Shown: positions 5,528 to 33,568 of the stretch, in pieces
Layout of the letters: each line of letters begins with the position of its first letter
Numbering within the stretch: the stretch's first letter is position 1
NCBI GenBank assembly: GCA_003281065.1
Contig: QCDA01000006.1
Span: 1-34,184 of the forward strand
DNA length: 34,184 nt
Reading direction: 5' to 3'
Source: Pelagibacteraceae bacterium AG-349-E10
Lineage (GTDB): Bacteria > Pseudomonadota > Alphaproteobacteria > HIMB59
The notes under the pieces: model-generated
Database searches by the model: none
Seen by the model: only the letters and a program-made list of their open reading frames with translations
What the model was told of the DNA's origin: nothing
Position numbers and translations under genes: made by a program

Positions 5528-6490
5528 ATGGTAAAAGTTTTTTTTCTATTAAATCTTTTACTTTTCACTTCTTTCTCAAATGCCCAGCTAATGGAAACAA
5601 AAGACCCTAAAGCTTTATGCTCCAACGGTGAGCAAGCGACATTTACCTTTTTTGAGGGCAATACAAATAATTGGTTAATGTATATTCAAGGAGGGGGTGT
5701 GGCTGCAAACGAAGACCAATACAGATCAAGAAATAACGGTTTAAAATCTCCTGCAGTTTCAAATGAAAGAGGTAAAACTTATATGGTCGAAGACTTTATT
5801 AACAACAACTATAATGTAATTTACATTCCTTATTGTAGCAATGACATACATCAGGGCACGCACGTAAACAATATTGATGGAAAAAAAGTTTATTTTCATG
5901 GTCGATACATTATTGAGGACATTTTTAATCAGTATGATGAAAGGTTTAAAAAAGCAGATAAATTAATTTTTGCAGGTTATAGTGCTGGGTCCTTGGCTTT
6001 GGGTTTAAACGTCGATCTAATTAAAAGATATGAAAATCCATATATTATTGCTGATAGTTTTTGGCTAGACGCAGAGTCTCTAAATGTTCGTTTAGGATGG
6101 AATGACGGACCATGGCCTAAAATTGTAAAGTTTTTATATAATGACAGGGTTGAGTATTGTAAAGATTCTCATTGGGCAAATTGTTTTTCTTCAAGACAAT
6201 TATTTGAAAGAAATAATTTGAATAATGTTTTTTTTATTTGGAACATAGGTGATCCTTACATGAAAGGTAATTTAGATAAAGTGAGACAATCTATAAATGA
6301 AGACGCAACTTTTTATAAAGCTGGTTTTTCAATTAATGCTGAAGAAAGAAAGTTAAAAGGAAATATTGAGTGGGGGCATGTTATGACAGCTACTGATTTA
6401 TATTACAAAGATTTTGAAGGTACCTCATTACAAAAGTTAATTTGGAATTGGATAAACGGATCTGGGAAAACTATTTATATAAACAATTAG
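5528..6490 (+). CDS. Secreted pectin-acetylesterase/Notum-like carboxyl esterase
   Basis: A 320-residue protein with an N-terminal signal peptide (hydrophobic residues 2-17, likely cut after SFSNA). The alpha/beta-hydrolase pattern of the pectinacetylesterase/Notum family is visible: the oxyanion block MYIQGGGVAAN (51-61), nucleophile elbow GYSAGS (150-155, Ser152), a candidate Asp at 176 or 181, and a late His in WGHVM (His283). The family removes acetyl or acyl groups from polysaccharides or other substrates; the substrate here is unknown. It lies directly after a tRNA and overlaps the convergent gcrA stop by 4 nt. An export-dependent esterase is an accessory-type gene within otherwise core DNA. 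Confidence 0.75.
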   Translation: MVKVFFLLNLLLFTSFSNAQLMETKDPKALCSNGEQATFTFFEGNTNNWLMYIQGGGVAANEDQYRSRNNGLKSPAVSNERGKTYMVEDFINNNYNVIYIPYCSNDIHQGTHVNNIDGKKVYFHGRYIIEDIFNQYDERFKKADKLIFAGYSAGSLALGLNVDLIKRYENPYIIADSFWLDAESLNVRLGWNDGPWPKIVKFLYNDRVEYCKDSHWANCFSSRQLFERNNLNNVFFIWNIGDPYMKGNLDKVRQSINEDATFYKAGFSINAEERKLKGNIEWGHVMTATDLYYKDFEGTSLQKLIWNWINGSGKTIYINN

Positions 6491-6957
6491 TTTTTCTCGT
6501 GTAAAAAATCCAAAAGTCTATCTAAATATTTTTCATCAACATTATATGCTTTTTTATAATGTTCAATACAATATGGTTTTGTTGGAATATTCTGACCACC
6601 ACAATAGTGAAATCCCTCCTCAAGTGGATCTCCGATAGGCCATTGACAAGATTTAAAGTTACCTGTGCCAACAATACTCTTTTTAAAACTAAATTTTTCT
6701 CTTCTTCGAACAGGTTCTTTTCTTATTGTATTTTGAGAAGATGAATTACTGGTTTCTCTGTACATGGTGACAGAAGAAAACTGTTGATTTTGAGTTGATT
6801 TTTTTCTGGAATTTTGACGTCTTTCAAGACCCAGTCTAAAAGCTTTACCAATAACGGCATTTTTAGTAAATCCAAGCTGCACGCCAATCTGGCTAGTAGC
6901 AACCCCTTCATTCCAAAGTTTTTTAAGATCTTCTACTTTTTGGTTATTCCAAGACAT
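6487..6957 (-). CDS. gcrA: Cell-cycle regulator GcrA
   Basis: A 156-residue transcription factor. The N-terminal DNA-binding part MSWNNQKVEDLKKLWNEG...SQIGVQLGFTKNAVIGKAFRLGL matches GcrA closely. A basic linker of ~60 residues follows, then the conserved sigma70-binding C-terminal domain CQWPIGDPLEEGFHYCG...KPYCIEHY. In Caulobacter, GcrA binds sigma70 and acts at promoters with GANTC sites methylated by CcrM. Its presence supports an alphaproteobacterial origin. It is divergent from pgk, sharing a ~100-bp intergenic region with a 14-bp palindrome. Confidence 0.93.
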   Translation of the reverse strand: MSWNNQKVEDLKKLWNEGVATSQIGVQLGFTKNAVIGKAFRLGLERRQNSRKKSTQNQQFSSVTMYRETSNSSSQNTIRKEPVRRREKFSFKKSIVGTGNFKSCQWPIGDPLEEGFHYCGGQNIPTKPYCIEHYKKAYNVDEKYLDRLLDFLHEKN

Positions 6958-7002
6958 TTTTTATGTACCTACTCTATTTAGTTCCTTATATGGGTAGTTT
7001 TA

Positions 7003-7016
7003 TACTATATATAGTA
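7003..7016. promoter_or_regulatory. 14-bp palindrome in the gcrA/pgk intergenic region
   Basis: TACTATATATAGTA is a perfect palindrome between divergent gcrA and pgk. It overlaps a possible plus-strand -10 (TATACT, 7001-7006) with a weak TTAGTT 17 nt upstream. An operator is possible, but alternating AT sequence alone could give this. Confidence 0.25.
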
Positions 7017-7058
7017 GTAGTAATCTAGCCTAAAATGGTTAAAAAAATGTGAATAAAT

Positions 7059-8225
7059 ATGAAATCTCTTAAAAATTTGAACTTTGAAAAAATCCTAAAT
7101 GTAGGTATTAGAGTCGATTTCAATGTTCCTATCGATAAAAATTTTAGAATTACAGACAAAACAAGATTAGATAGATCTAAGGAAACGATCGATTTTATTA
7201 AAAATAAACAATGTAATATTTTTCTTATTTCACATTTTGGAAGACCAAAAGAAAATTTTGATGAGAAATATTCTTTCTCAAAATTAATTGATCAGTTTGA
7301 GGATATATTGGAGTTAAAATTAAATTTTATTAGTTATGATAGTTTTTTAGATAGTGGCCTTAATGAAATAGATGCTGATAAGCCAACTATAAGCCTTTTA
7401 GATAATATAAGATTTTTTGAGGGAGAAATAAAAAATGATTTAAATTTTAGCAAGTCTATTACAGATAAATTAGATTTATATGTTAATGAGGCTTTCTCTG
7501 CTTCTCACCGATTTCACTCATCAGTTAATCAAATGGCTAAAAACATATTGTCAGCACCTGGATTTAATTTTGAGAGAGAAATTTTAGCAATAGATAATAT
7601 AAAAAAATCTACAAAGAAAAAATTAGCGATTATTGGTGGATCAAAAGTTTCAACTAAAATAAAAACACTTCTATCTTTAACATCCTCTTGCTCAGATATT
7701 TTTGTTGGAGGGGCAATGGCAAATAATTTTTTTAAATATAATAGTATAAATGTAAGCAATTCTTTAATTGAAGAGGACACAGAAAGTATGATTGAAATGA
7801 TTTACAATTCTGCAAAATCAACAAATTGTAAAATTCATCTTCCATCAGATGTTATACTTGACTCAAATGAAAATAAATTAATAGATGAGCTTCCTAAAAG
7901 CTCCGATTTTAAAATCCTAGATATATCAGTTTCTTCACACGCAGTTTTAGAAAAACTGATAGGTAACAGTGATATCGTTTTGTGGAATGGACCAATGGGA
8001 ATGATCGAAGACAATAAATTTTCAAAGGGATCAATAAATTTAGCACATCTCCTAGCAAAATCTCAAGCAGATGTTGTCATAGGTGGTGGAGACACAATTT
8101 TAGCAATCAATATGGCTGAGGAAAAATTTGAAAATTTTTATTTTGTTTCAACAGCTGGCGGTGCTTTTCTTGAGGCGCTCGAGAACAAAGATCTTCCTGG
8201 AATTCAAGCCCTTATGGCTGATTAA
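7059..8225 (+). CDS. pgk: Phosphoglycerate kinase
   Basis: A 388-residue glycolytic/gluconeogenic enzyme converting 1,3-bisphosphoglycerate and ADP to 3-phosphoglycerate and ATP. Motifs: RVDFNVP, SHFGRPK, LLDNIRFFEGEIKND, KLAIIGGSKVSTKI, VLWNGPMGM, VIGGGDT and the C-terminal FVSTAGGAFLEAL. Length is typical. The usually strict VNDAFGxxHRxHAS block reads VNEAFSASHRFHSS, with Asp to Glu and Gly to Ser. It stands alone rather than next to gap or fba. The tail overlaps the convergent ispZ by 14 nt. Confidence 0.95.
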   Translation: MKSLKNLNFEKILNVGIRVDFNVPIDKNFRITDKTRLDRSKETIDFIKNKQCNIFLISHFGRPKENFDEKYSFSKLIDQFEDILELKLNFISYDSFLDSGLNEIDADKPTISLLDNIRFFEGEIKNDLNFSKSITDKLDLYVNEAFSASHRFHSSVNQMAKNILSAPGFNFEREILAIDNIKKSTKKKLAIIGGSKVSTKIKTLLSLTSSCSDIFVGGAMANNFFKYNSINVSNSLIEEDTESMIEMIYNSAKSTNCKIHLPSDVILDSNENKLIDELPKSSDFKILDISVSSHAVLEKLIGNSDIVLWNGPMGMIEDNKFSKGSINLAHLLAKSQADVVIGGGDTILAINMAEEKFENFYFVSTAGGAFLEALENKDLPGIQALMAD

Positions 8226-8748
8226 TAAAATGTTTTTTTAGCAATGGAATTTGAATTATTGTAAACACAATAGTAATTCCCATTATTCCAAATACTTTAA
8301 AATTTACCCAAACATCAGTCGTTTGAGTCCGCCAAACTATTTCATTTAAAACAGCTAAAAGAATAAAAAAGCTTGACCACATTTTATTCATTAACCCCCA
8401 ACCCTCATCAGTCAATTTTAATGATGAGTTTAATAATAACTTTAAAACGGGTTTATTAATTAACGTACTTCCAATCAAAACTGCAGCAAAAAGAGCATTT
8501 ATAATTGTTGGTTTCATTTTAAAAAATATCTCATTTTTTAGAAAAATACTTAAACCACCAAAAACAACTAAGATAATTGTACTTACTAACATCATTGTTG
8601 AAATTTTTCTTTCTTTGAAATAGATGGCTATAAGGGAAATAAATGTTGCAACTATTACAGCAGCAATACTTAAATAAAGATCTTTATCTGATTTATAATA
8701 GACTGCGAAAAAAACAATTAAGGGAAAAAATTCAAACAATTGTTTCAT
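8212..8748 (-). CDS. ispZ: Inner-membrane septation protein A (YciB/IspZ)
   Basis: A 178-residue polytopic membrane protein with about five hydrophobic segments. It starts MKQLFEFFPLIVFFAVYY, the typical beginning of the YciB/IspA family, and has the block LTDEGWGLMNKMWSSFFILLAVLNEIVWR around residues 112-140. The family takes part in septation and envelope maintenance. It is the last gene of the minus-strand dapF-mtaB-ftsY-ispZ operon, 1 nt after ftsY, a gene order known from alphaproteobacteria. The plus-strand pgk overlaps its 3' end. Confidence 0.9.
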   Translation of the reverse strand: MKQLFEFFPLIVFFAVYYKSDKDLYLSIAAVIVATFISLIAIYFKERKISTMMLVSTIILVVFGGLSIFLKNEIFFKMKPTIINALFAAVLIGSTLINKPVLKLLLNSSLKLTDEGWGLMNKMWSSFFILLAVLNEIVWRTQTTDVWVNFKVFGIMGITIVFTIIQIPLLKKHFINQP

Positions 8749-26009: not shown

Positions 26010-27442
26010 CTTTCTTCAATCAGTTAAACTCGCAAGAAAAAAGAATAAGTATTTATCTGTTAATTGGAGCTTTTTTTTTCTTATTATTTGATTATTCAGT
26101 AGCTTCTTTTTTTGACAGTATTAATCATCAAACAAAGTCTCTTTTTGGAACACTCACTCACTTTGGTGACTCTTTATATTTTTTTGTACCTACTATTTTA
26201 ATCTGGGGGTTAATAAAAATTATTAAAAGTAAAAATCAAATTATGGAAACCATAAGTGACATTAGTCTATTTATTTTTTTAAATATCTTATTAAGTGGTA
26301 TAGTTACACAAATATTAAAACATATAATTGGAAGACCACGACCAGTTTTATATAATGGCTTTGAATTAAAATCATTAGACATAATACAATTTGACTCTAA
26401 ATGGCATTCATTCCCATCAGGTCATACCGCAACTATTTTTGCTTTTATCTTTTGTATGATATTTCTCTTTCCGAAAATTAAAAATGCATTGATAACTATT
26501 GCAATTATTATTGCATCTACGAGAGTCATAGTTGGCGCTCATTTTATTAGTGATATCTTTGGCGGTACGCTTGTTGCATACCTTTCAACAATATTTATTT
26601 CAAAAAAATTAGCAGATAAAAACAAGTTATTTACATCAGAAAGTGACAAACTAATTCCAAATAATAATGTTGAAATAATTTCAAGCACTATTGCCAATCT
26701 TTATCAAAACATTTTCTCTCTTTACTTGAATTTTAATTTTTACTTTAAAACCCTTACAATAACTCTCCTACTCTCAATATTATTTTTCATATTTCCCTCA
26801 TTAGACATAACTGTTAGTGGCCTATTTTTTGGACAGGAAGGTAAATTTATTGCTTCAGAGTCTGACTGGTTTATCTATTTTGTCCGTAAAATGCTTTTAC
26901 CTCTCATGGCTTTATTAGTTTTTTTTGTTCCCATAGCTGCTGTTTTCAAACAAATTTATTACAAAGAAAAAATTTTAAATATTGCAGTCAGAGAGTGGGT
27001 TTACTTGTTTTCTTGTCTTATTATCGGAACAGGTGTTGTTGTAAACTCTATTTTTAAAAATTTGTGGGGTCGTGCAAGGCCTAATGACACCATTCAATTT
27101 GGAGGAGAAGAGCCATTTACCATTCCATGGTTAAATGTTGATTATTGTAGCACCAATTGTAGCTTCGTTTCAGGTGACGTGTCTTTTTTTACGCTATCTT
27201 TAGCTTTACTAATTATATTCAATAAAACTTCATGGAACACATTTGCATATGCTTCAATTCTTTTAATCTCATTATTAAGAATTATGGAGGGTGATCATTT
27301 TTTGAGTGATACGATTATGAGTTTTATCATCACATATGTAATAATAAAGGGGCTCAATGATATTTTTAAGAACTTTCCAGAGGATCTAAATTTAAATCAA
27401 TTAAAAAAACCCTCTTGGCTATCTCGAAAAAACTCTAATTAA
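26006..27442 (+). CDS. Tandem PAP2-family phosphatase, second domain altered
   Basis: A 478-residue membrane protein containing two PAP2 (type 2 phosphatidic acid phosphatase) domains. Domain 1 is canonical: KHIIGRPRP (106-114), PSGH (137-140) and STRVIVGAHFISD (Arg173, His179, Asp183). Domain 2 keeps KNLWGRARP (351-359) and LLRIMEGDHFLSD (Arg425, His431, Asp435), but its PSGH position reads VSGD (388-391), replacing the proton-donor His by Asp. Such enzymes dephosphorylate lipid phosphates, undecaprenyl pyrophosphate or lipid A. Coupling to the GT-C-like gene fits a lipid-carrier or lipid A role (inference). Confidence 0.88.
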   Translation: MTFFNQLNSQEKRISIYLLIGAFFFLLFDYSVASFFDSINHQTKSLFGTLTHFGDSLYFFVPTILIWGLIKIIKSKNQIMETISDISLFIFLNILLSGIVTQILKHIIGRPRPVLYNGFELKSLDIIQFDSKWHSFPSGHTATIFAFIFCMIFLFPKIKNALITIAIIIASTRVIVGAHFISDIFGGTLVAYLSTIFISKKLADKNKLFTSESDKLIPNNNVEIISSTIANLYQNIFSLYLNFNFYFKTLTITLLLSILFFIFPSLDITVSGLFFGQEGKFIASESDWFIYFVRKMLLPLMALLVFFVPIAAVFKQIYYKEKILNIAVREWVYLFSCLIIGTGVVVNSIFKNLWGRARPNDTIQFGGEEPFTIPWLNVDYCSTNCSFVSGDVSFFTLSLALLIIFNKTSWNTFAYASILLISLLRIMEGDHFLSDTIMSFIITYVIIKGLNDIFKNFPEDLNLNQLKKPSWLSRKNSN

Positions 27443-27474
27443 AATTCATTATAATTTTATATCTACAGATTAAT

Positions 27475-28353
27475 ATGTTAATTTATAATGTGAGATATTT
27501 TTTTAGTCTATTTGTAGTTATTTTATTTCACCCATTTTTATTATTCGCAGAAGATTTAATTCCCGAAAAATTCCATGGTACTTGGAGCAATGATTGTTCA
27601 AAAGAACAAGATGTATTTATTATTACTGAAAGTAGCTACTTTAATCTCTATGAAAGTCAGGATGAAATAGACGAGTATGCGTATTTCTACCTTCAGTTTT
27701 CTGACTCAAAGACATATAAAGATTGGATTTATCTGGATGGAGAAATATTTGAATTTAAAAATGTTTTTATGAAACTGAATGACGATATTTTAGAAGTTGT
27801 ATTCGAAGAGCAAGATAATCTCGATGGATCCTATGATTTTTTAAATAATACAAACAACACTTTTACATATGCTAAATGCGATAACACGCCTGCTAGTTTA
27901 ACTCTATTATTCGGAGAGGTATTATCATATATGAATTCAAAGGCATCTTTATCCTGTTCAAATTTCTCCAAGAATAAGGGGGAGTGCTTTGAAGATGTTT
28001 TTAGTTTTTTAGATGTCTCTGGTAATAAAGCACTTTCAAATGCTGAGATTAATAGAGCTTCTAAACTTTTAGTTTTTTTTAGCACAATAAATGGGCAAGA
28101 ATTTGATGAGGCAGGTCTGTTTGGAATAATTTCTAGTTATGCTATCACCCCCTTACTTACTAAAGTTATTTTAAATAATTTTGATTTTGACAACAGTGCA
28201 GATCTCACACTAGAAGAAATACTTCAAGACAGAGAGGGTTTATTTGATTTAGATTTTAGTGCAAATGATCAAATAGAAATAGATAATCAAAAAATTAACG
28301 AGCAAATTAGGGACTTCATTAACAAACTTCAAGGTTTAGGGAGTTTTTTATAA
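27475..28353 (+). CDS. Exported EF-hand protein
   Basis: A 292-residue protein with a signal peptide (hydrophobic 9-24, likely cut near LLFA-ED). The N-terminal ~110 residues form an unrecognised domain (FHGTWSNDCSKEQDVFIITESSYF) that resembles small secreted lipocalin-like sheets. The C-terminal half has EF-hand loops DVSGNKALSNAE (180-191) and DFDNSADLTLEE (237-248), both with Asp or Ser/Asn at 1, 3, 5 and Glu at 12, and a degenerate third near 260. Calcium binding in the periplasm is likely. It ends 7 bp before the tRNA-Arg(UCG) 3' end and is the last gene before the element array. Confidence 0.7.
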   Translation: MLIYNVRYFFSLFVVILFHPFLLFAEDLIPEKFHGTWSNDCSKEQDVFIITESSYFNLYESQDEIDEYAYFYLQFSDSKTYKDWIYLDGEIFEFKNVFMKLNDDILEVVFEEQDNLDGSYDFLNNTNNTFTYAKCDNTPASLTLLFGEVLSYMNSKASLSCSNFSKNKGECFEDVFSFLDVSGNKALSNAEINRASKLLVFFSTINGQEFDEAGLFGIISSYAITPLLTKVILNNFDFDNSADLTLEEILQDREGLFDLDFSANDQIEIDNQKINEQIRDFINKLQGLGSFL

Positions 28354-28360
28354 ATTAAAC

Positions 28361-28435
28361 TGGCGGTTCCGCAAGGATTCGAACCCTGACTAAATGATCC
28401 GAAGTCATTTGTGCTATCCGTTACACCACGGAACC
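28361..28435 (-). tRNA. tRNA-Arg (anticodon UCG), integration site
   Basis: Complete minus-strand tRNA. The acceptor is GGTTCCG/CGGAACC with discriminator G and encoded CCA, and the D stem is GTGT/GCAC. The anticodon stem AATGA/TCATT has loop CTTCGGA, giving anticodon TCG. The T stem is CAGGG/CCTTG with loop TTCGAAT. Its first 38 nt, from nucleotide 1 to the end of the anticodon loop, recur exactly at 30698 and 32204. A -10-like TAAAAT lies 8 nt upstream of nucleotide 1 and is kept at the rightmost copy. Confidence 0.95.
28398..28435 (-). repeat. 38-nt direct repeat, copy 1 (inside the tRNA)
   Basis: This is the tRNA-Arg 5' half from G1 through A38, the last anticodon-loop base. It is identical to 30698-30735 and 32204-32241, all in the same orientation. 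It would be the left attachment junction of the element array, with recombination at the anticodon loop. Confidence 0.9.
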
Positions 28436-28489
28436 TTTAGTTGATTTTATTAACTTTTTTATTAATTCATAGAGGATATATTTTTTTAA

Positions 28490-28507
28490 GGGACAAATAT
28501 GGGACAC
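28490..28507. repeat. Doubled GGGAC motif, left copy of segment 1
   Basis: GGGACAAATATGGGACAC: a 5-bp word repeated with an 11-bp period, 54 nt from the tRNA 5' end. An identical 18-bp copy lies at 30588-30605, near the other end of the same segment. The one-turn spacing is what a protein binding twice on one DNA face would want, such as recombinase arm sites. Confidence 0.7.
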
Positions 28508-28526
28508 TAAAGATATAATTTTATCT

Positions 28527-29018
28527 ATGAAAACCCTCTTAGCCCTATTGTTATTAATCCCTAGTTTGAGTTGGAGCGAAGACAATTTAGATGGGACATA
28601 TCTATTTTGTGATAATCCAAAATATAATCATATAGCTTGGCAAACCGGATATGAGTTTAAAGGTAAAAGCAAAGACAACAAAGACTATCCTGATGAAAAT
28701 TATTTAATGCATCATGACCTTATTCAGTACAATATTAGTTTAAATACTGATGGAAATTTAAAAGAAACTTTTCAAAGATATATTGCCTACCCAAGTTGGA
28801 TACAAATTTTCAATTATAATTATATCGAAAAAAGATTTTGGGTTTGGGAAGAATTTGACAGATATACTTTAGACCACATACATGTTCACGAAACAGAAAG
28901 CTCTTTCAAATCAAATAAAATTTGTTCAGTAGTAGATAGTAAAAAAGAACTTATGAATAAAATTAATTCTGAATTTCAAAGAGAAAAAAAACTTATTGAA
29001 AAGAATAGAAAAATTTAA
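28527..29018 (+). CDS. Secreted protein of unknown function, shared leader 1
   Basis: 163 residues with signal peptide MKTLLALLLLIPSLSW, then an unrecognised mature part (starting SEDNLDGTYLFCDNP) rich in Tyr, Trp and His, ending in a charged helix. The DLDGTYLFCDNP-like opening, a short beta strand with a cysteine, is common in small exported proteins of unknown role. The leader DNA (48 bp) is identical to that of the gene at 29375, while the mature parts share nothing visible. The stop overlaps the next start by one base (TAATG). It is cargo of segment 1. Confidence 0.65.
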   Translation: MKTLLALLLLIPSLSWSEDNLDGTYLFCDNPKYNHIAWQTGYEFKGKSKDNKDYPDENYLMHHDLIQYNISLNTDGNLKETFQRYIAYPSWIQIFNYNYIEKRFWVWEEFDRYTLDHIHVHETESSFKSNKICSVVDSKKELMNKINSEFQREKKLIEKNRKI

Positions 29019-29374
29019 TGAAAACCCTCTTAGCCCTATTGTTATTAATACCCTCTTTGAGTTGGGCTGAGAAACTCACTCTTAAATGTTCATATTTAGA
29101 AGGTTATTTTATTTTGCAAGATAATTTCTTATTTACAAAATTATCTCAGTATAAAGAAGAAGGTCAAATCCGTAATTATAAAAAAGTTGATAAGAATGAT
29201 GTTTTTATAACTTTTGAATTAAAAGAAATAATAGGCTCTGTTGGTTTTAGTGAATCAGAAGAACGAAGACAGCTTTTAATTAAAATAGAAAATGAATTTG
29301 GTTGGAAATATAACAGAATTACTAAGACTCTTATTAGGGGAACAAATCATCATGATTGTAGAGAATATGATTAG
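29018..29374 (+). CDS. Secreted protein of unknown function, shared leader 2
   Basis: 118 residues with the same leader MKTLLALLLLIPSLSW, then AEKLTLKCSYLEGYFILQDN. The mature part is a small, probably beta-rich domain with cysteines near both ends (KCSYLEG and NHHDCREYD), which could form a disulfide in the periplasm. The leader DNA equals the neighbouring copies for the first 33 bp and then differs slightly. Translation is probably coupled to the genes on both sides. No family is recognised. Confidence 0.6.
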   Translation: MKTLLALLLLIPSLSWAEKLTLKCSYLEGYFILQDNFLFTKLSQYKEEGQIRNYKKVDKNDVFITFELKEIIGSVGFSESEERRQLLIKIENEFGWKYNRITKTLIRGTNHHDCREYD

Positions 29375-29902
29375 ATGAAAACCCTCTTAGCCCTATTGTT
29401 ATTAATCCCTAGTTTGAGTTGGGGAGATAGTGATTTAATTTATGATACAGGTGACTGGGATGTATGGAAATTCACTGATGATTTTACTGATGAGAGTTTT
29501 TATAGAGTTCAAGGCTTCACAAAAAGTATTAATTCCCTAGCTTCAGACCATTTTAAAATAAGTTTGCAATACACTAGTTCTAAAACGCCTGACCATCTAA
29601 CATTAGCCCCACTAAGAAATACTTTCTTATGTAAAAATACACATAGTGAAGTAAATGTTCGTATGCGAATTGATAAAAATAAAGCTTTCTCTCATAAATT
29701 TAAGAAATATAAGGATAAAGCTCATGGTGTTGTATTTGCCACTATGGATAAAACATTTATAAATAATCTTCTAAATAATTTAAGAAAAGGTAATATTTTT
29801 TTATTTGAAATCCAAAATAAAGGTTGTGATAAAAATTATAAAAGAGAAAAGCGTTTGACTGGTCTCGATGGTGCATTGAAAGTAATTGATAAAAACTTAT
29901 GA
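29375..29902 (+). CDS. Secreted protein of unknown function, shared leader 3
   Basis: 175 residues with leader MKTLLALLLLIPSLSW, then GDSDLIYDTGDWDVWKFTDD. The mature part has an alternating strand pattern (WDVWKFTDDFTDESFYRVQ) and two late cysteines (FLCKNTHSE and NKGCDKNYK). The start codon follows the previous stop without any gap, and its own end overlaps the next gene by 4 nt (ATGA). The 48-bp leader DNA is identical to that at 28527. Function is unknown. Confidence 0.6.
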   Translation: MKTLLALLLLIPSLSWGDSDLIYDTGDWDVWKFTDDFTDESFYRVQGFTKSINSLASDHFKISLQYTSSKTPDHLTLAPLRNTFLCKNTHSEVNVRMRIDKNKAFSHKFKKYKDKAHGVVFATMDKTFINNLLNNLRKGNIFLFEIQNKGCDKNYKREKRLTGLDGALKVIDKNL

Positions 29903-30252
29903 CTAAAATAATTCAATTTAAAAAACCAGAACCTAAGAAAAAGAAACCAAGAAAACATGGTCCTAGAGAGCTTTCTCTCACTAAGAAATTTGAAGAGTTA
30001 AATAAACAATGGCATAAAAATGAAAGAGCATTTACTGATTTATTTCAAGAGTATGTACCACATGAAAAAAAATACTTTAAAGAAGCTTTTAGAATATACA
30101 AAGAACAGAATAAGTTATTAAGAAAAGTTGCAACTAAAACAGAATTAAGAAGAGAAATTAAACAAGATATAGCTAAATATGAGAAGGCTTATAAAAAACA
30201 AACTAGAGCATTTCTTAGTTTCATTGAAGCAATCAAGAAGTTAGATAAGTAA
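29899..30252 (+). CDS. Basic coiled-coil protein of unknown function
   Basis: 117 residues without signal peptide or membrane helix. Residues 8-22 are strongly basic (KKPEPKKKKPRKHGPRE), as in nucleic-acid-binding tails; the rest is helical and charged, with heptad-like spacing (FEELNKQWHKNERAFTDLF, FRIYKEQNKLLRKVATK). It is coupled to the upstream secreted-protein gene by ATGA and shares one base with the next start. A DNA-binding role, for example in element maintenance, is possible but speculative. Confidence 0.6.
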   Translation: MTKIIQFKKPEPKKKKPRKHGPRELSLTKKFEELNKQWHKNERAFTDLFQEYVPHEKKYFKEAFRIYKEQNKLLRKVATKTELRREIKQDIAKYEKAYKKQTRAFLSFIEAIKKLDK

Positions 30253-30527
30253 TGGTTAAAAGGAAAATAGCAAAAAGTAAAACCAATAAACTCAATAATC
30301 CTCTTGAAGATAATAATTTAAAAATAGTTTTAATCGTATGTGCTACGGCTTTAATTATGTTTTTTTCTTATCAATTTTACTTTTCAAGTCATGCTACATG
30401 TGTGAGAGCAGAAGTTGCAGTTAGTAAAGATTATTTTGATAGAACATACGGGCCCCATGAATGGAGAGAAGTTAAAGATGAGAGGCTTATGAGTATCAAA
30501 AGAAAGTGTTCTATAAGGGTCAAATAG
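30252..30527 (+). CDS. Small membrane-anchored protein of unknown function
   Basis: 91 residues: a basic N-terminus (MVKRKIAKSKTNK), one transmembrane helix (about 24-46, LKIVLIVCATALIMFFSYQF) and a ~45-residue outer part with two cysteines (CVRAEVAVSKDYFDRTYG ... KRKCSIRV). The positive-inside rule places the C-terminal part in the periplasm. The start overlaps the previous stop (TAATG). It is the last intact gene of segment 1. Confidence 0.55.
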   Translation: MVKRKIAKSKTNKLNNPLEDNNLKIVLIVCATALIMFFSYQFYFSSHATCVRAEVAVSKDYFDRTYGPHEWREVKDERLMSIKRKCSIRVK

Positions 30528-30545
30528 CTATTGTAGAAAAATTAG

Positions 30546-30632
30546 ATGATGAAAAAACTCTTAGCTCTATTGTTATTAAAATTATGTGGGACAAATATGG
30601 GACACATCGAAACAAATTTTAACCAATTTTAA
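30546..30632 (+). pseudogene. Truncated shared leader at the right end of segment 1
   Basis: ATG at 30546 or 30549 reads MMKKLLALLLLKLCGTNMGH and stops after 28 codons. The first part is the same signal-peptide DNA as in the upstream genes, with a few changes. It breaks off where the others continue to the cleavage site and joins directly to the doubled GGGAC motif. It looks like a leader whose mature part was lost by recombination. The ~450-bp stretch 30528-30983 holds no other gene, only repeats and the tRNA half. Confidence 0.5.
30588..30605. repeat. Doubled GGGAC motif, right copy of segment 1
   Basis: An identical 18-bp copy of the motif at 28490-28507, here 92 nt before the second tRNA half. 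It forms a direct-repeat bracket private to segment 1. Confidence 0.7.
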
Positions 30633-30697
30633 TTAATATAAGAAAAAAAAGTAGCTAAAGTAAAAGAAGATAAGCAAGGTGAAAGACTACAAGAATT

Positions 30698-30735
30698 TCC
30701 GAAGTCATTTGTGCTATCCGTTACACCACGGAACC
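30698..30735 (-). repeat. 38-nt tRNA-Arg 5'-half repeat, copy 2
   Basis: Identical over 38 bp to the 5' half of tRNA-Arg(UCG). It has no 3' half, so it is not a functional tRNA. Its right flank (TTGA...ATTATCTTTTTT) keeps a weak resemblance to the region upstream of the intact tRNA. It separates segments 1 and 2. Confidence 0.9.
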
Positions 30736-30783
30736 GTATTGAAAACATTATCTTTTTTGCAATAAATTTTCATTAAAATAAAA

Positions 30784-30807
30784 GTATACGAAAAAGTATA
30801 CGAAAAC
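30784..30807. repeat. Doubled GTATAC motif, left copy of segment 2
   Basis: GTATACGAAAAA followed directly by GTATACGAAAAC: two near-identical 12-bp units, 48 nt from the tRNA half. GTATAC is itself palindromic. The same position holds a different doubled motif in segment 1 and at 32297. A second copy is at 32130. Confidence 0.7.
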
Positions 30808-30983
30808 TTGTCTAAGACTTTCATACCAAATAAACTTTATCAAAAAATTTTATAAATAATTATCCATATATTTCGTTTAGTTTTAAATTAGTAAAAGATA
30901 AATCAATTCTCGAAAACAAACGAATGTTTGAAAAGATTACTGTTTCTAAATTTCTTTTTGATTCTGCTTCGGTTTACTTGGTC

Positions 30984-31679
30984 TTACTTGTTGTTACGAT
31001 TCCAATGCTCTGGAGAAACGAATTTATCAACAATTTTTTTTGAAAAATCAATTTCTATTTTTTCACATAAAGTTTCAATAGCATTGAAATTACCGCTTAT
31101 GATTGCATCCGTGTCAACCTCAATTACTCGATTTACAGTCTGGATCAATTCTTTCAATCTAAGTTCATAATCATCGGCAAATTTATTCCAAAAATCTTCT
31201 TCAGTGCTGTGTTGAACCATAAAATGCGTTCTCAAACAGGAGCGGATAAAATTCTGTCTATTTCTTCGGACAACGACCCATAAAGCGTCGGGAAATTGAG
31301 AATTAAAAATACGCCATAGGAGCGAAAGTTTAGCATCTTTATATAACCATGGTAGGTTGTGTGAGTATCCTTGTGCTTTTATGATATTATGTAAAATTTC
31401 TTTTAGGGATTTCCCATCACCAAAAGAAATTTTAATGTTAAAGTCTCGAGGGGGAAGAGATCTAACCCCTAATGGGCAAAAATCTCCTGCTTTAAGAATT
31501 CCTTTGATAATCTTTTCCCTTATTACAGTGTTTTCGAAAAAACCTTTTGGATTAGGTTCGCCACCAGGGACTGTTGGTCCTGTAAAGACTCCCAACTCTG
31601 CCATGATACCAGCAGTCATTGAAGTTCCTGAACGAGGAAGTCCAGTGATCAATATTGGAGTTTCTGAATTTAGTGTCAT
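30984..31679 (-). CDS. Sulfotransferase-like P-loop protein
   Basis: 231 residues. The N-terminal ILITGLPRSGTSMTAGIMAELG (9-30) is the 5'-phosphosulfate-binding loop of PAPS-dependent sulfotransferases, and WVVVRRNRQNFIRSCLRTHF (about 134-153) fits the 3'-phosphate-binding Arg/Ser segment. The C-terminal end is short but plausible. Such genes are common cargo in marine phages and islands, where they modify surface glycans or lipids. It is transcribed against the neighbouring ORFs and sits alone in segment 2. The acceptor is unknown. Confidence 0.8.
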   Translation of the reverse strand: MTLNSETPILITGLPRSGTSMTAGIMAELGVFTGPTVPGGEPNPKGFFENTVIREKIIKGILKAGDFCPLGVRSLPPRDFNIKISFGDGKSLKEILHNIIKAQGYSHNLPWLYKDAKLSLLWRIFNSQFPDALWVVVRRNRQNFIRSCLRTHFMVQHSTEEDFWNKFADDYELRLKELIQTVNRVIEVDTDAIISGNFNAIETLCEKIEIDFSKKIVDKFVSPEHWNRNNK

Positions 31680-31795
31680 GGCATTGACTATATAATTATA
31701 ATTAAATCGTTAGTATTATTATCCAACTTATCATCGTTTAATGCGATGAAATTTTTTATCAAAACGCTTAATTTCCCTATGTTAGAAAAAAAAGT

Positions 31796-32020
31796 GTGAT
31801 TGATAAATATCAAACTATTTATGATTTGTATTTAAATTATGATTTAGATGATGAAAAATTATGGATAGATACCACATATCAATTTGATCTTAGAATTTAT
31901 GTTGATAGATATGATTTTTCTATGGGTTTCCCTATTGAGACAGGACCAAGATGTAAAATATTTGATTATGACTCTTTAGATAAAGTTAAAAAAATTAAAG
32001 ACAGAGAAAAATTACTTTAA
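31796..32020 (+). CDS. Small acidic protein of unknown function
   Basis: 74 codons from a GTG at 31796, with no clear Shine-Dalgarno sequence. The peptide is rich in Asp and Tyr (YQTIYDLYLNYDLDDEKLW, IYVDRYDFSMGFPIE) and ends in a charged helix. It has no signal peptide or membrane helix. The high aromatic/acidic content and lack of stop codons in AT-rich DNA support a real gene, but no family is recognised. It is divergent from the sulfotransferase gene. The 321-bp stretch after it (32021-32341) holds only repeats. Confidence 0.4.
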   Translation: MIDKYQTIYDLYLNYDLDDEKLWIDTTYQFDLRIYVDRYDFSMGFPIETGPRCKIFDYDSLDKVKKIKDREKLL

Positions 32021-32129
32021 TCATATATATCTGAAATATCACCTTTATAAAGTTGGATATCTTTCAATCTAAAGTGAAAAATTATTTTAATTGAAATTAG
32101 AACAACAAACTCACTATATGCCAACTAAA

Positions 32130-32152
32130 GTATACGAAAAGTATACGAAAAC
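32130..32152. repeat. Doubled GTATAC motif, right copy of segment 2
   Basis: GTATACGAAAA then GTATACGAAAAC, the same as the left copy but with one A fewer, making the period 11 bp. It lies 51 nt before the third tRNA half. Confidence 0.7.
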
Positions 32153-32203
32153 ATTTCCTGTAAATATCTTTAAAAACTTAGACTTTTACCTAGATTGAAA
32201 TAA

Positions 32204-32241
32204 TCCGAAGTCATTTGTGCTATCCGTTACACCACGGAACC
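32204..32241 (-). repeat. 38-nt tRNA-Arg 5'-half repeat, copy 3
   Basis: Identical over 38 bp to the intact tRNA 5' half. Its right flank (TTGATTTTATTGACTTTTTT) is nearly the same as that of the intact tRNA, including the -10-like TAAAAT on the minus strand. This may be the original tRNA 5' half and promoter pushed away by insertions, or the end of a further element. Confidence 0.9.
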
Positions 32242-32296
32242 AATTATTGATTTTATTGACTTTTTTTTATTTTAAACAACTTACTAAAATTAATCC

Positions 32297-32312
32297 GACA
32301 CTTGTCAGACAC
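32297..32312. repeat. Doubled GACAC motif beside the third tRNA half
   Basis: GACACTTGTCAGACAC: the word GACAC repeated with an 11-bp period, 55 nt from the tRNA half, exactly where the other two segments carry their own doubled motifs. No second copy was found up to the window end. Confidence 0.55.
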
Positions 32313-32341
32313 TAAGGTTATAATCAATTTATTATAAGATA

Positions 32342-33322
32342 ATGAAAACCCTGATAGTCCTATTGTTGTTGACACCTGCCTTGAGTATAGCAAAAATTTA
32401 TAATGGGACTCTTGTAGATGCTCATAGCCAAGTGGGACCATTAATCAGCAATGAACAAGTATCAAAACAAATTATTAATAATGATGTTGATCTAACTTTA
32501 CTATCAATTAGAGGAAAGTGGGATTCTGCTACCCAAAGATATCTTTCTATACAAAAATTAACTAACCAAAAGACAAAATATTTAATTCCAACTAAGCTAG
32601 GAGGTTTTACAAGAAAAGAAAGAGATAACTCTAAAGTAATTAGAACAATTAAATATTTAAGAGACCAAGCTCTCAATTCTAATATCAACTATGTTGGTTT
32701 TGGTGAAATCATAGTCCAGCATGCTCCTCATAATCATTCAAAATTAAAATACGAAGGCATAAATCTTGACTTCAAATCTGAAAGAATAAATAAAGCAATT
32801 GATATCGTTCTTAGCGATAAAAAACCTGTAATACTTCATGTTGAGTTAAATGATTATGAAGAAGACTCAAAAAAAATACTAAGTCAATTAATTGATTTGG
32901 CTAAAAAAAATCCAAGTGAAGATTTTTTGTTAATGCATATGGCACAAATCGAATTTTCTGAGGCCGAATACTTGTTAAATGATACGAACAATATTCATTT
33001 TATAACTTCACATGCAGATAATGAAAAAAAAAGACAGATGAAAAGAAATCCGGGGAAGGCTCAAATGGGATGGATAAATCTATTTGATAAAAATGACAAT
33101 CTACAAAAGAGATGGTTAGATTTAATGAATAAAAATCCTAAACGGTTTGTTTTAGCATTAGACAATGTTTGGGATGGACATTGGCTAAAAGGATACTCTA
33201 CTAGAATTTATATTTGGAGAAAAGCACTCTCTTCTCTAGACAAACAAGCTGCTTTACTTATTGCATGTGGAAATGCAAATGATTACTTTAAACTTGAAAT
33301 TAAATGCTTAGAGGAGAGGTAA
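32342..33322 (+). CDS. Exported amidohydrolase-2-like protein
   Basis: 326 residues with a leader (MKTLIVLLLLTPALSIA) related to those in segment 1. The mature part looks like an amidohydrolase-2-type TIM barrel: LVDAHSQVG at the first strand (His28), GFGEI (Glu122), PVILHVEL (His166), LLMHMAQ (His199), FVLALDNVW (Asp274) and a GNANDYFKL ending. The usual HxH of the first strand is HSQ, so one metal ligand is missing and catalysis is doubtful or altered. Substrate unknown. It lies next to the third tRNA half and so may be element cargo. Confidence 0.65.
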   Translation: MKTLIVLLLLTPALSIAKIYNGTLVDAHSQVGPLISNEQVSKQIINNDVDLTLLSIRGKWDSATQRYLSIQKLTNQKTKYLIPTKLGGFTRKERDNSKVIRTIKYLRDQALNSNINYVGFGEIIVQHAPHNHSKLKYEGINLDFKSERINKAIDIVLSDKKPVILHVELNDYEEDSKKILSQLIDLAKKNPSEDFLLMHMAQIEFSEAEYLLNDTNNIHFITSHADNEKKRQMKRNPGKAQMGWINLFDKNDNLQKRWLDLMNKNPKRFVLALDNVWDGHWLKGYSTRIYIWRKALSSLDKQAALLIACGNANDYFKLEIKCLEER

Positions 33323-33331
33323 TAAATAAAG

Positions 33332-33568
33332 ATGACAACTTTATCTAGCTCTATATTTTACATACTAACGGGATGGACTTGTGCAATAAATATATACAAA
33401 TTCTTTTATCAAAAAAAATTAAAAGACTCTCAAAATCAAGACAGTCAAAATGATATTCAGTTTAATGAAATGAGGTCACATTATAAAAAAGCAGATAAAC
33501 TAGGGAAGATTTTTTTAACGCTTTGGTGTTTTTCTGCAGTTTGGTTTTTTTATAATTTGAATACGTAA
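33332..33568 (+). CDS. Small two-helix membrane protein of unknown function
   Basis: 78 residues with two hydrophobic helices (about 6-24, SSIFYILTGWTCAINIYKF, and 59-75, GKIFLTLWCFSAVWFFY) joined by a polar Gln/Asn/Lys loop. It starts 9 nt after the amidohydrolase-like gene in the same direction, so co-transcription is likely. No family is recognised. Confidence 0.5.
   Translation: MTTLSSSIFYILTGWTCAINIYKFFYQKKLKDSQNQDSQNDIQFNEMRSHYKKADKLGKIFLTLWCFSAVWFFYNLNT

Follow-up and report, generated by a model that had tools for sequence, protein, structure and literature searches.

Stacked Integrase-Less Elements Behind a tRNA-Arg(UCG) Gene of a Pelagibacteraceae Bacterium and Their Probable Insertion in Trans

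Introduction

How can several short segments of DNA come to lie one behind another between repeated halves of the same tRNA gene, when none of them is seen to encode an integrase? The question is raised by contig QCDA01000006.1 of Pelagibacteraceae bacterium AG-349-E10 (own assembly of 902,891 bases in 46 contigs), whose positions 1 to 34,184 were analysed as a whole and are called the window below. An intact tRNA-Arg(UCG) gene lies there on the minus strand (28361–28435, by ARAGORN and by sequence), and beyond its 5′ end follow two more copies of its 5′ half with small segments between them, which a first-pass annotation, made from the DNA letters only, had described as two stacked elements.

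It is probable, in the reading preferred here, that this tract is a stack of small non-autonomous elements inserted by tyrosine recombinases acting in trans; that the insertion was site-specific is considered highly probable, and movement in trans is favoured over decay. Cores, empty sites in relatives, swapped cargo, shared ends and paired repeats are all seen in the sequences, together with the lack of any recognised integrase. A circular element carrying core and arms would meet an integrase supplied from elsewhere, whose source might be a phage or an island with its own integrase, such as those present at other tRNAs of the genus, and would recombine with the anticodon-loop core of tRNA-Arg(UCG). 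Each insertion would bring a new tRNA 5′ half and upstream region, rebuilding the tRNA, and older elements would be shifted outward, where their tRNA copy, no longer needed, would decay. Cores and paired arm-type repeats at both ends would permit the integrase in trans to excise the elements as well as to insert them, and the elements may pass between cells and may be active at present.

Core Copies of the tRNA and Extent of the Tract

First of all, the 38 nucleotides (nt) that run from tRNA nt 1 to the last base of the anticodon loop (nt 38) occur three times in the window, exact and in the same orientation (minus strand): copy 1 within the gene (28398–28435), copy 2 at 30698–30735 and copy 3 at 32204–32241. 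The number of matches stays at three when up to three mismatches are allowed, and 100 shuffles gave none, so that the perfect halves reported earlier are confirmed both by ARAGORN and by the 38-mer search. The 38-mer probably serves as the attachment core. The likeness of copies 1 and 3 extends about 25 nt past the tRNA, into the tRNA upstream region. The 5′ half and proximal upstream region of the intact gene appear to come from segment 1, the element next to it. An intact tRNA with 5′ fragments upstream of it, in the same orientation and bounding segments, is the configuration of islands of the Islander type; the integrase gene that such islands hold within the element is absent. The open reading frames (ORFs) of segments 1 and 2 include no integrase, and the two PF00589 matches of the window's own genome are both on other contigs, in agreement with the first-pass annotation.

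Segment 1 (28436–30697) measures 2262 nt between cores and segment 2 (30736–32203) measures 1468 nt, and both are without integrase. Two segments had been counted at first. However, in relatives with an empty site, the conserved right neighbour of the tract, a gene of 78 amino acids (aa) on the plus strand (33332–33568) that was used as the landmark for empty versus occupied sites, is separated from the 5′ end of the tRNA by 43 nt; the flexible tract therefore reaches 33331 and covers 28436–33331, and there are at least three segments. The third, a degraded one beyond copy 3 (32242–33331), is an insert relative to the empty sites, and its outer tRNA copy has been lost. The find is thus larger than first described, and it belongs to a pattern that is more widespread in the genus.

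The Same Locus in Related Genomes

The half-tRNA was searched with up to two mismatches in 100 genomes, the window's own included, and 42 had a match, all of them in one genus; all 41 matching relatives were examined, and the 10 of the 52 genus genomes that had no match lie outside the locus comparison. Genome completeness across the genus is 50 to 99%. Occupancy was read at 35 loci, those of 34 relatives and of the window, L033, L035, L036, L037, L039, L044 and L065 being unreadable in this respect; L182 (genome G035) belongs to the occupancy count and stands outside the counts of 27 inserts, 17 bounded elements and left-end repeats used below.

Six of the 35 sites are empty (L038, L041, L046, L047, L050 and L058), 28 are occupied and fully spanned, with inserts of 667 to 6043 nt, and one, L063, is partial, presenting a right end before its contig stops. 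L063 was also considered as an empty site; this was rejected, because it is a right end on a cut contig without an intact tRNA. None of the PF00589 matches of the 52 genus genomes falls within the tRNA-Arg(UCG) inserts, and when nine integrases of the genus were used as tblastn queries, neither the window region nor 40 loci in relatives yielded any remnant of an integrase (best E 0.063), nor did L182. Close relatives differ in what they carry: among genomes whose left flanks are 95.4–95.9% identical to the window, G048 (95.5%) is empty, G045 (95.9%) has 6.0 kb and G020 (95.4%) has 5.0 kb. Empty sites, single-segment alleles and other cargo, for which an alignment with relatives had been proposed, are all present at this locus, and the site is an insertion hot spot in the genus. 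The cassettes stand serially at a tRNA, at a fixed place and with content that differs between close relatives, as in an additive island. The earlier proposal that the elements entered at the anticodon loop and brought a replacement 5′ half, with stacking and with gain and loss between relatives, is supported by the cores and by these relatives.

One part of the tract behaves differently. Of the 27 inserts, 16 contain a 310-aa gene (complete in 15, partial in L049), mostly adjoining the landmark, and other content is variable; no copy of this gene was found in the insert of the window. The content near the tRNA is more variable than this landmark-proximal part, which in some members of the genus has the appearance of an old, inherited piece. 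The core copies on the landmark side have 0, 0, 3 and 5 mismatches in L057, L069, L045 and L062, respectively, as expected if selection acts on the tRNA-proximal copy only. An old tandem duplication around the tRNA, inherited vertically, would explain three adjacent copies on one strand, and the 310-aa gene does show that old portions can exist within the tract; however, segments 1 and 2 resemble one another only in their ends and in a leader DNA described below, and relatives have empty sites and different cargo. This explanation is very improbable and was dropped, because the cargo differs and empty sites exist.

Arm-Like Repeats and Shared Ends

Tyrosine integrases bind arm sites on both sides of the core. 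Inside both ends of segments 1 and 2 there are direct repeats with 11- or 12-bp spacing, built on GGGACA in segment 1 and on GTATACG in segment 2, which may be such integrase arm sites. In segment 1 the left repeat GGGACAAATATGGGACAC (28490–28507, plus strand), with two GGGACA 11 bp apart, begins 54 nt inside the left core, and it recurs 92 nt inside the right core (30588–30605, plus strand) with 18 of 18 positions identical. Segment 2 has AGTATACG twice at either end, 12 bp apart on the left (30780–30806, plus strand) and 11 bp apart on the right (32126–32151, plus strand), and segment 3 has a degenerate repeat, CCGACA and CAGACA 11 bp apart (32295–32311, plus strand). The left arm of segment 1 also scored within a promoter-like site of the first cargo gene, whose TATAAT ends at 28519, a kind of site that is no commoner there than in shuffles; as a matter of speculation, integrase binding at this arm could affect cargo expression.

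These repeats recur in the relatives. A GC-containing hexamer repeated at 11 bp, with its start 51–55 nt from the tRNA, is found in 22 of 27 occupied left ends, compared with a mean of 0.28 and a maximum of 2 in shuffles and with 0 to 4 for the other spacings from 6 to 18; the 27 ends are partly related, and among dereplicated ends 6 of 11 show the 11-bp repeat. If a match is defined as a score above at least 99.5% of 262 between-family controls, 12 of 17 bounded elements have matching repeats on the left and on the right, namely all 5 integrase-bearing ones and 7 of the 12 integrase-less ones. When one element was taken for each of the eight end types, the best match lay within the element in 8 of 8, and, of the 40,320 pairings, no other scores as high, by a pairing score that was devised after the repeats had been seen.

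In addition to the repeats, whole ends are shared by elements with different contents. The left end of segment 1 (type A, 28398–28567, 170 nt) is 95.9% identical to that of segment 1 of locus L034 in genome G045, and the right ends (30577–30735, 159 nt) are 92.5% identical; with L057 the values are 95.5% over 110 nt on the left and 90.7% over 151 nt on the right. The interiors of these three elements have no match except the leader DNA. The host flanks of L057 are 80.7% and 83.0% identical to the window, below the element ends, whose lengths include the conserved tRNA half. Likewise, segment 2 has both ends, and not the cargo, in common with segment 1 of L061: 87 nt at 90.8% on the left (30698–30783) and 100 nt at 91.0% on the right (32142–32241), and nothing in the stretch between these ends matches.

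Integrase-Bearing Counterparts at Other tRNAs

Elements that carry their own integrase exist in the same genus at other tRNAs. Their integrases have 314–327 aa, and the gene starts 62–99 nt from the tRNA 5′ end (L167, L170, L169, L165 and L171). In L167, tRNA-Ala nt 1–41 are duplicated 4.6 kb away, and in L170, tRNA-Met nt 1–40 are duplicated 6.9 kb away; L169 lies in the tRNA-Met region as well. L165 and L171 duplicate the whole tRNA-Gly, and they therefore support the layout on the 5′ side and the pairing of arms, not the half-tRNA rule. All five have a repeat of their own, spaced at 11 or 12 bp, at both inner ends. Elements with 3′ halves also occur in the genus, at tRNA-Asp (nt 34–78) and at tRNA-Arg(UCU) (nt 33–77).

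The tRNA-Ala half is found twice in 3 of 52 genomes, once in the integrase-bearing L167 and twice without integrase, in L184 (2.2 kb) and L185 (5.0 kb), both of which have matched GTGATAAC repeats at both ends; for tRNA-Met, two halves are found in only 1 of 52 genomes. The integrase-less L184 at tRNA-Ala and the integrase-bearing L169 at tRNA-Met share 1227 nt at 98.4% identity, from just after the L169 integrase gene, and their hosts are 91.3% and 95.9% identical at the two tRNA-Arg flanks.

The exchange of cargo at the tRNA-Arg site might also be ascribed to a shuffling of the locus without any site-specific recombinase, in which shared ends, tRNA halves and leader repeats would undergo homologous recombination. 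Homology is available for it, in shared ends of 87–170 nt and in the repeated leader DNA, and the 310-aa gene is found behind different left ends in different genomes. However, the boundaries fall in the anticodon loop of three tRNAs, at nt 38, 41 and 40, and the paired arm-like repeats and the integrase-bearing counterparts also speak against such shuffling. Homologous recombination may contribute to cargo exchange; as the explanation of the locus it is quite improbable.

Some further observations concern these elements. A 341-aa gene, dehydrogenase-like on inspection of its sequence only, is 99.7% identical between L184 (oriented 7690–8715) and L169:8369–9394. L185:11286–12900 and L045 at tRNA-Arg (oriented 5882–7500), both in integrase-less elements of 5 kb, have two neighbouring proteins in common at 30% and 33% identity, the L045 member of one pair being a DUF2130 protein and the partner having 125–127 aa; the two elements possibly form a satellite family. 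At the tRNA-Met position of L169 (L169:7042–7111), ARAGORN gives a tRNA-Lys(CTT) whose 5′ part is unlike the intact tRNA-Met copy, and the tRNA beside this integrase-bearing element may be damaged. L165 and L171 agree over 1011 nt at the integrase end (89.7%), over 106 nt at the right end (93.4%) and over a stretch of 83 nt, and in little else, so that cargo is swapped in integrase-bearing elements too.

Search for a Helper Integrase

An integrase acting in trans has to come from somewhere, and several results weigh against the preferred explanation. Neither an integrase for tRNA-Arg(UCG) nor one with these arm repeats came to light, and none stands at the site in the 52 genus genomes. With up to one mismatch, the GGGACA repeat is confined in 162 genomes of the order to the tRNA-Arg locus (20 places in 15 genomes), and two mismatches add one unrelated place in G007. 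Viral contigs with the 38-mer, the 22-mer or the degenerate 22-mer of the tRNA half, or with the GGGACA arm pair, numbered zero. Moreover, 5 of the 17 bounded elements have no left-right match, all of them integrase-less (L045, segment 1 of L049, segment 1 of L061, L062 and L069), the presence of the 310-aa gene in 16 of 27 inserts agrees with an insert that is old and was inherited by part of the genus, and no circular form or movement was observed. Neither the recurrence of the 310-aa gene nor the counts for the separate classes of element changed the estimate for a stack inserted in trans, because two of its supports, the empty sites and the different cargo between shared ends, are independent of both.

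As for possible sources, a search with an integrase alignment gave one viral relative, L183, with a 3′ tRNA end upstream of its integrase. The left end of segment 1 matches, in phage records, only the tRNA-Glu genes of four, and three integrases of the genus match phage integrases (Pseudomonas, Mannheimia, Pasteurella and others) at less than 60% identity. A resident helper could be missed, since the genus genomes are 50 to 99% complete. According to PMC3861242, one pelagiphage-like genome carries an integrase together with 46 bp of tRNA-Leu; therefore, phages with tRNA attachment (att) sites, which are possible helpers, do exist.

The most serious alternative is that the segments are remnants like cis-mobilizable elements (CIMEs), which lost their own integrase by deletion and left dead cargo between leftover att sites. 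In its favour are the fruitless search for a helper, the repeats that fail to match in 5 of 12 integrase-less bounded elements, the several outer cores with 2–5 mismatches or gone, and the left ends of L192 and L218, which are 84.5–84.7% identical over 110–111 nt to the integrase-bearing L167 and have no integrase there. Yet the tblastn search above met no remnant of an integrase in the inserts, and core copies 2 and 3 are identical at 38 of 38 positions and the segment 1 arms at 18 of 18, though they would be unselected if dead. The same two ends also surround different cargo across genomes, which one loss event would not yield, and in many inserts of types A and B a cargo ORF starts 91–94 nt from the tRNA, near the distance at which integrase genes start. 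Decay of this kind is regarded as unlikely, though far less so than the two other alternatives, and insertion in trans is retained as the preferred explanation.

Cargo and the Leader Module

All cargo ORFs of segment 1 are on the plus strand. The first, of 163 aa (28527–29018), has a signal-peptide-like leader MKTLLALLLLIPSLSW and no Pfam family; those of 118 aa (29018–29374) and 175 aa (29375–29902) have the same leader and are different in the rest. They are followed by a basic 117-aa ORF without a confident family (29899–30252), a 91-aa ORF with no family (30252–30527) and, right before the right arm, a degenerate copy of the leader DNA (30549–30579, plus strand). Segment 2 carries a sulfotransferase-like protein of 231 aa (PF13469; 30984–31679, minus strand) and a 74-aa ORF with no family (31796–32020, plus strand). 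The single ORF listed for segment 3, of 326 aa (32342–33322, plus strand), has a related leader and no Pfam match, and a search of 40 relatives did not find it at this site. With regard to phage satellites (PICMI, VEIME and the like), which a helper phage packages and spreads, there was no strong PHROG match for three cargo proteins of the window or six from L045; there was also no plasmid match for segments 1 and 2, and no relative of the 117-aa protein in viral contigs.

The leader is conserved as DNA, not as peptide alone. Nearly identical DNA of about 50 bp that encodes MKTLLALLLLIPSLSW heads the three abutting ORFs of segment 1 (28527–28576, 29018–29067 and 29375–29424). A search for a 35-nt leader pattern, with up to three mismatches, gave 61 places, distributed over 33 of the 52 genus genomes, and by coordinates 15 of these places are at the tRNA-Arg locus; of those elsewhere, 43 of 46 have a tRNA within 6.5 kb and 31 of 46 within 3 kb, compared with 23% and 12% expected in the one-contig genome G029, and the places in related genomes are not independent. 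Three places have no nearby tRNA, namely L215 and, on short contigs, L193 and L206. Across 79 distinct instances of the leader DNA, conservation begins with the ATG and declines around nt 50, and some instances are interrupted by stops; since the search selected the first 35 nt, the left border and nt 36–50 are the informative parts. Tentatively, and with more doubt than belief, a two-level cassette system extending through the genus might be envisaged in SAR11: minimal integrase-less elements at several tRNAs, each with a tRNA 5′ half, would each have arms for one of several foreign integrases (one landing place, many helpers), and the 50-bp module encoding a signal peptide (ATGAAAACCCTCTTAGCC...) would serve as a recombination seam or as a ready-made leader before swapped, unrelated secreted proteins.

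On the other side of the tRNA, a PAP2 frame runs into the tRNA 3′ end in L038, L040, L046, L049 and L069, and its last residues, RKDSNPD, are encoded within the tRNA. In the window (region 27417–28360) the PAP2 protein ends in SRKNSN, and a 292-aa gene occupies the 0.9 kb that separate it from the tRNA; an early insertion on the 3′ side may have left behind a tRNA 3′ end that has since decayed.

Comparison with Known Systems

The anatomy is simple and countable: tRNA 5′ half, arm pair, cargo, arm pair, tRNA 5′ half. It suggests how cassettes of about 1–5 kb come and go without a resident integrase between cells that are about 95% identical in the flanks. In a literature search over titles and the starts of abstracts, with subscription papers outside its scope, no integrase-less 5′-half elements with paired arm repeats appeared for SAR11; the comparisons below likewise follow the relevant parts of the cited papers.

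Additive flexible genomic islands, as described for Ca. Actinomarinales (PMC7771536) and Methylophilaceae (PMC10872708), are alike in having tRNA-fragment repeats and variable content at a fixed place. The Methylophilaceae islands repeat the 20 nt at the 3′ end of tRNA-Lys (PMC10872708), whereas here the 5′ half is repeated; the descriptions given of both groups include no paired arm repeats or shared ends (PMC7771536, PMC10872708), while both are present here and the absence of integrase was checked. CIMEs likewise retain att sites, have no integration genes and accrete in tandem (PMC5704250), and in the present segments the core copies, with the paired repeats in a putative arm function, would represent retained attL and attR. 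CIMEs are described as decayed integrative and conjugative or integrative and mobilizable elements (PMC5704250); the present segments have 1.5–2.3 kb, a 5′ half and ends common to different cargo.

Clusters of attC sites lacking integron integrases (CALINs) and miniature inverted-repeat transposable elements (MITEs), presented as hitchers in PMC11389934, are also non-autonomous, keep their recombination sites and depend on an enzyme in trans; they use attC sites or inverted repeats, whereas tRNA halves and arm-like repeats, putatively for an integrase of phage type, are found here. Tycheposons are tRNA-bordered cargo elements of marine bacteria as well (PMC10872708), and the segments had been suggested, as one possibility, to be very small relatives of such elements. 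This placement fails: tycheposons have 4–200 kb and a tyrosine recombinase according to the account in PMC10872708, and the present segments, of 2262 and 1468 nt, are too small and have none.

Finally, the statement that most tRNA islands restore the 3′ half agrees with Table 1 of Islander, in which 3760 of 3919 islands have a 3′ fragment and 159 a 5′ fragment (PMC4383910). As far as that source describes them, the 5′-fragment islands resemble the present elements, the 5′ fragment being displaced upstream with the crossover at the anticodon loop. Islander, however, requires an integrase and at least 2 kb (PMC4383910), and the present segments would be filtered out. Such elements escape integrase-based island finders, and their arm repeats are a signature by which each of them might be assigned to its helper integrase.

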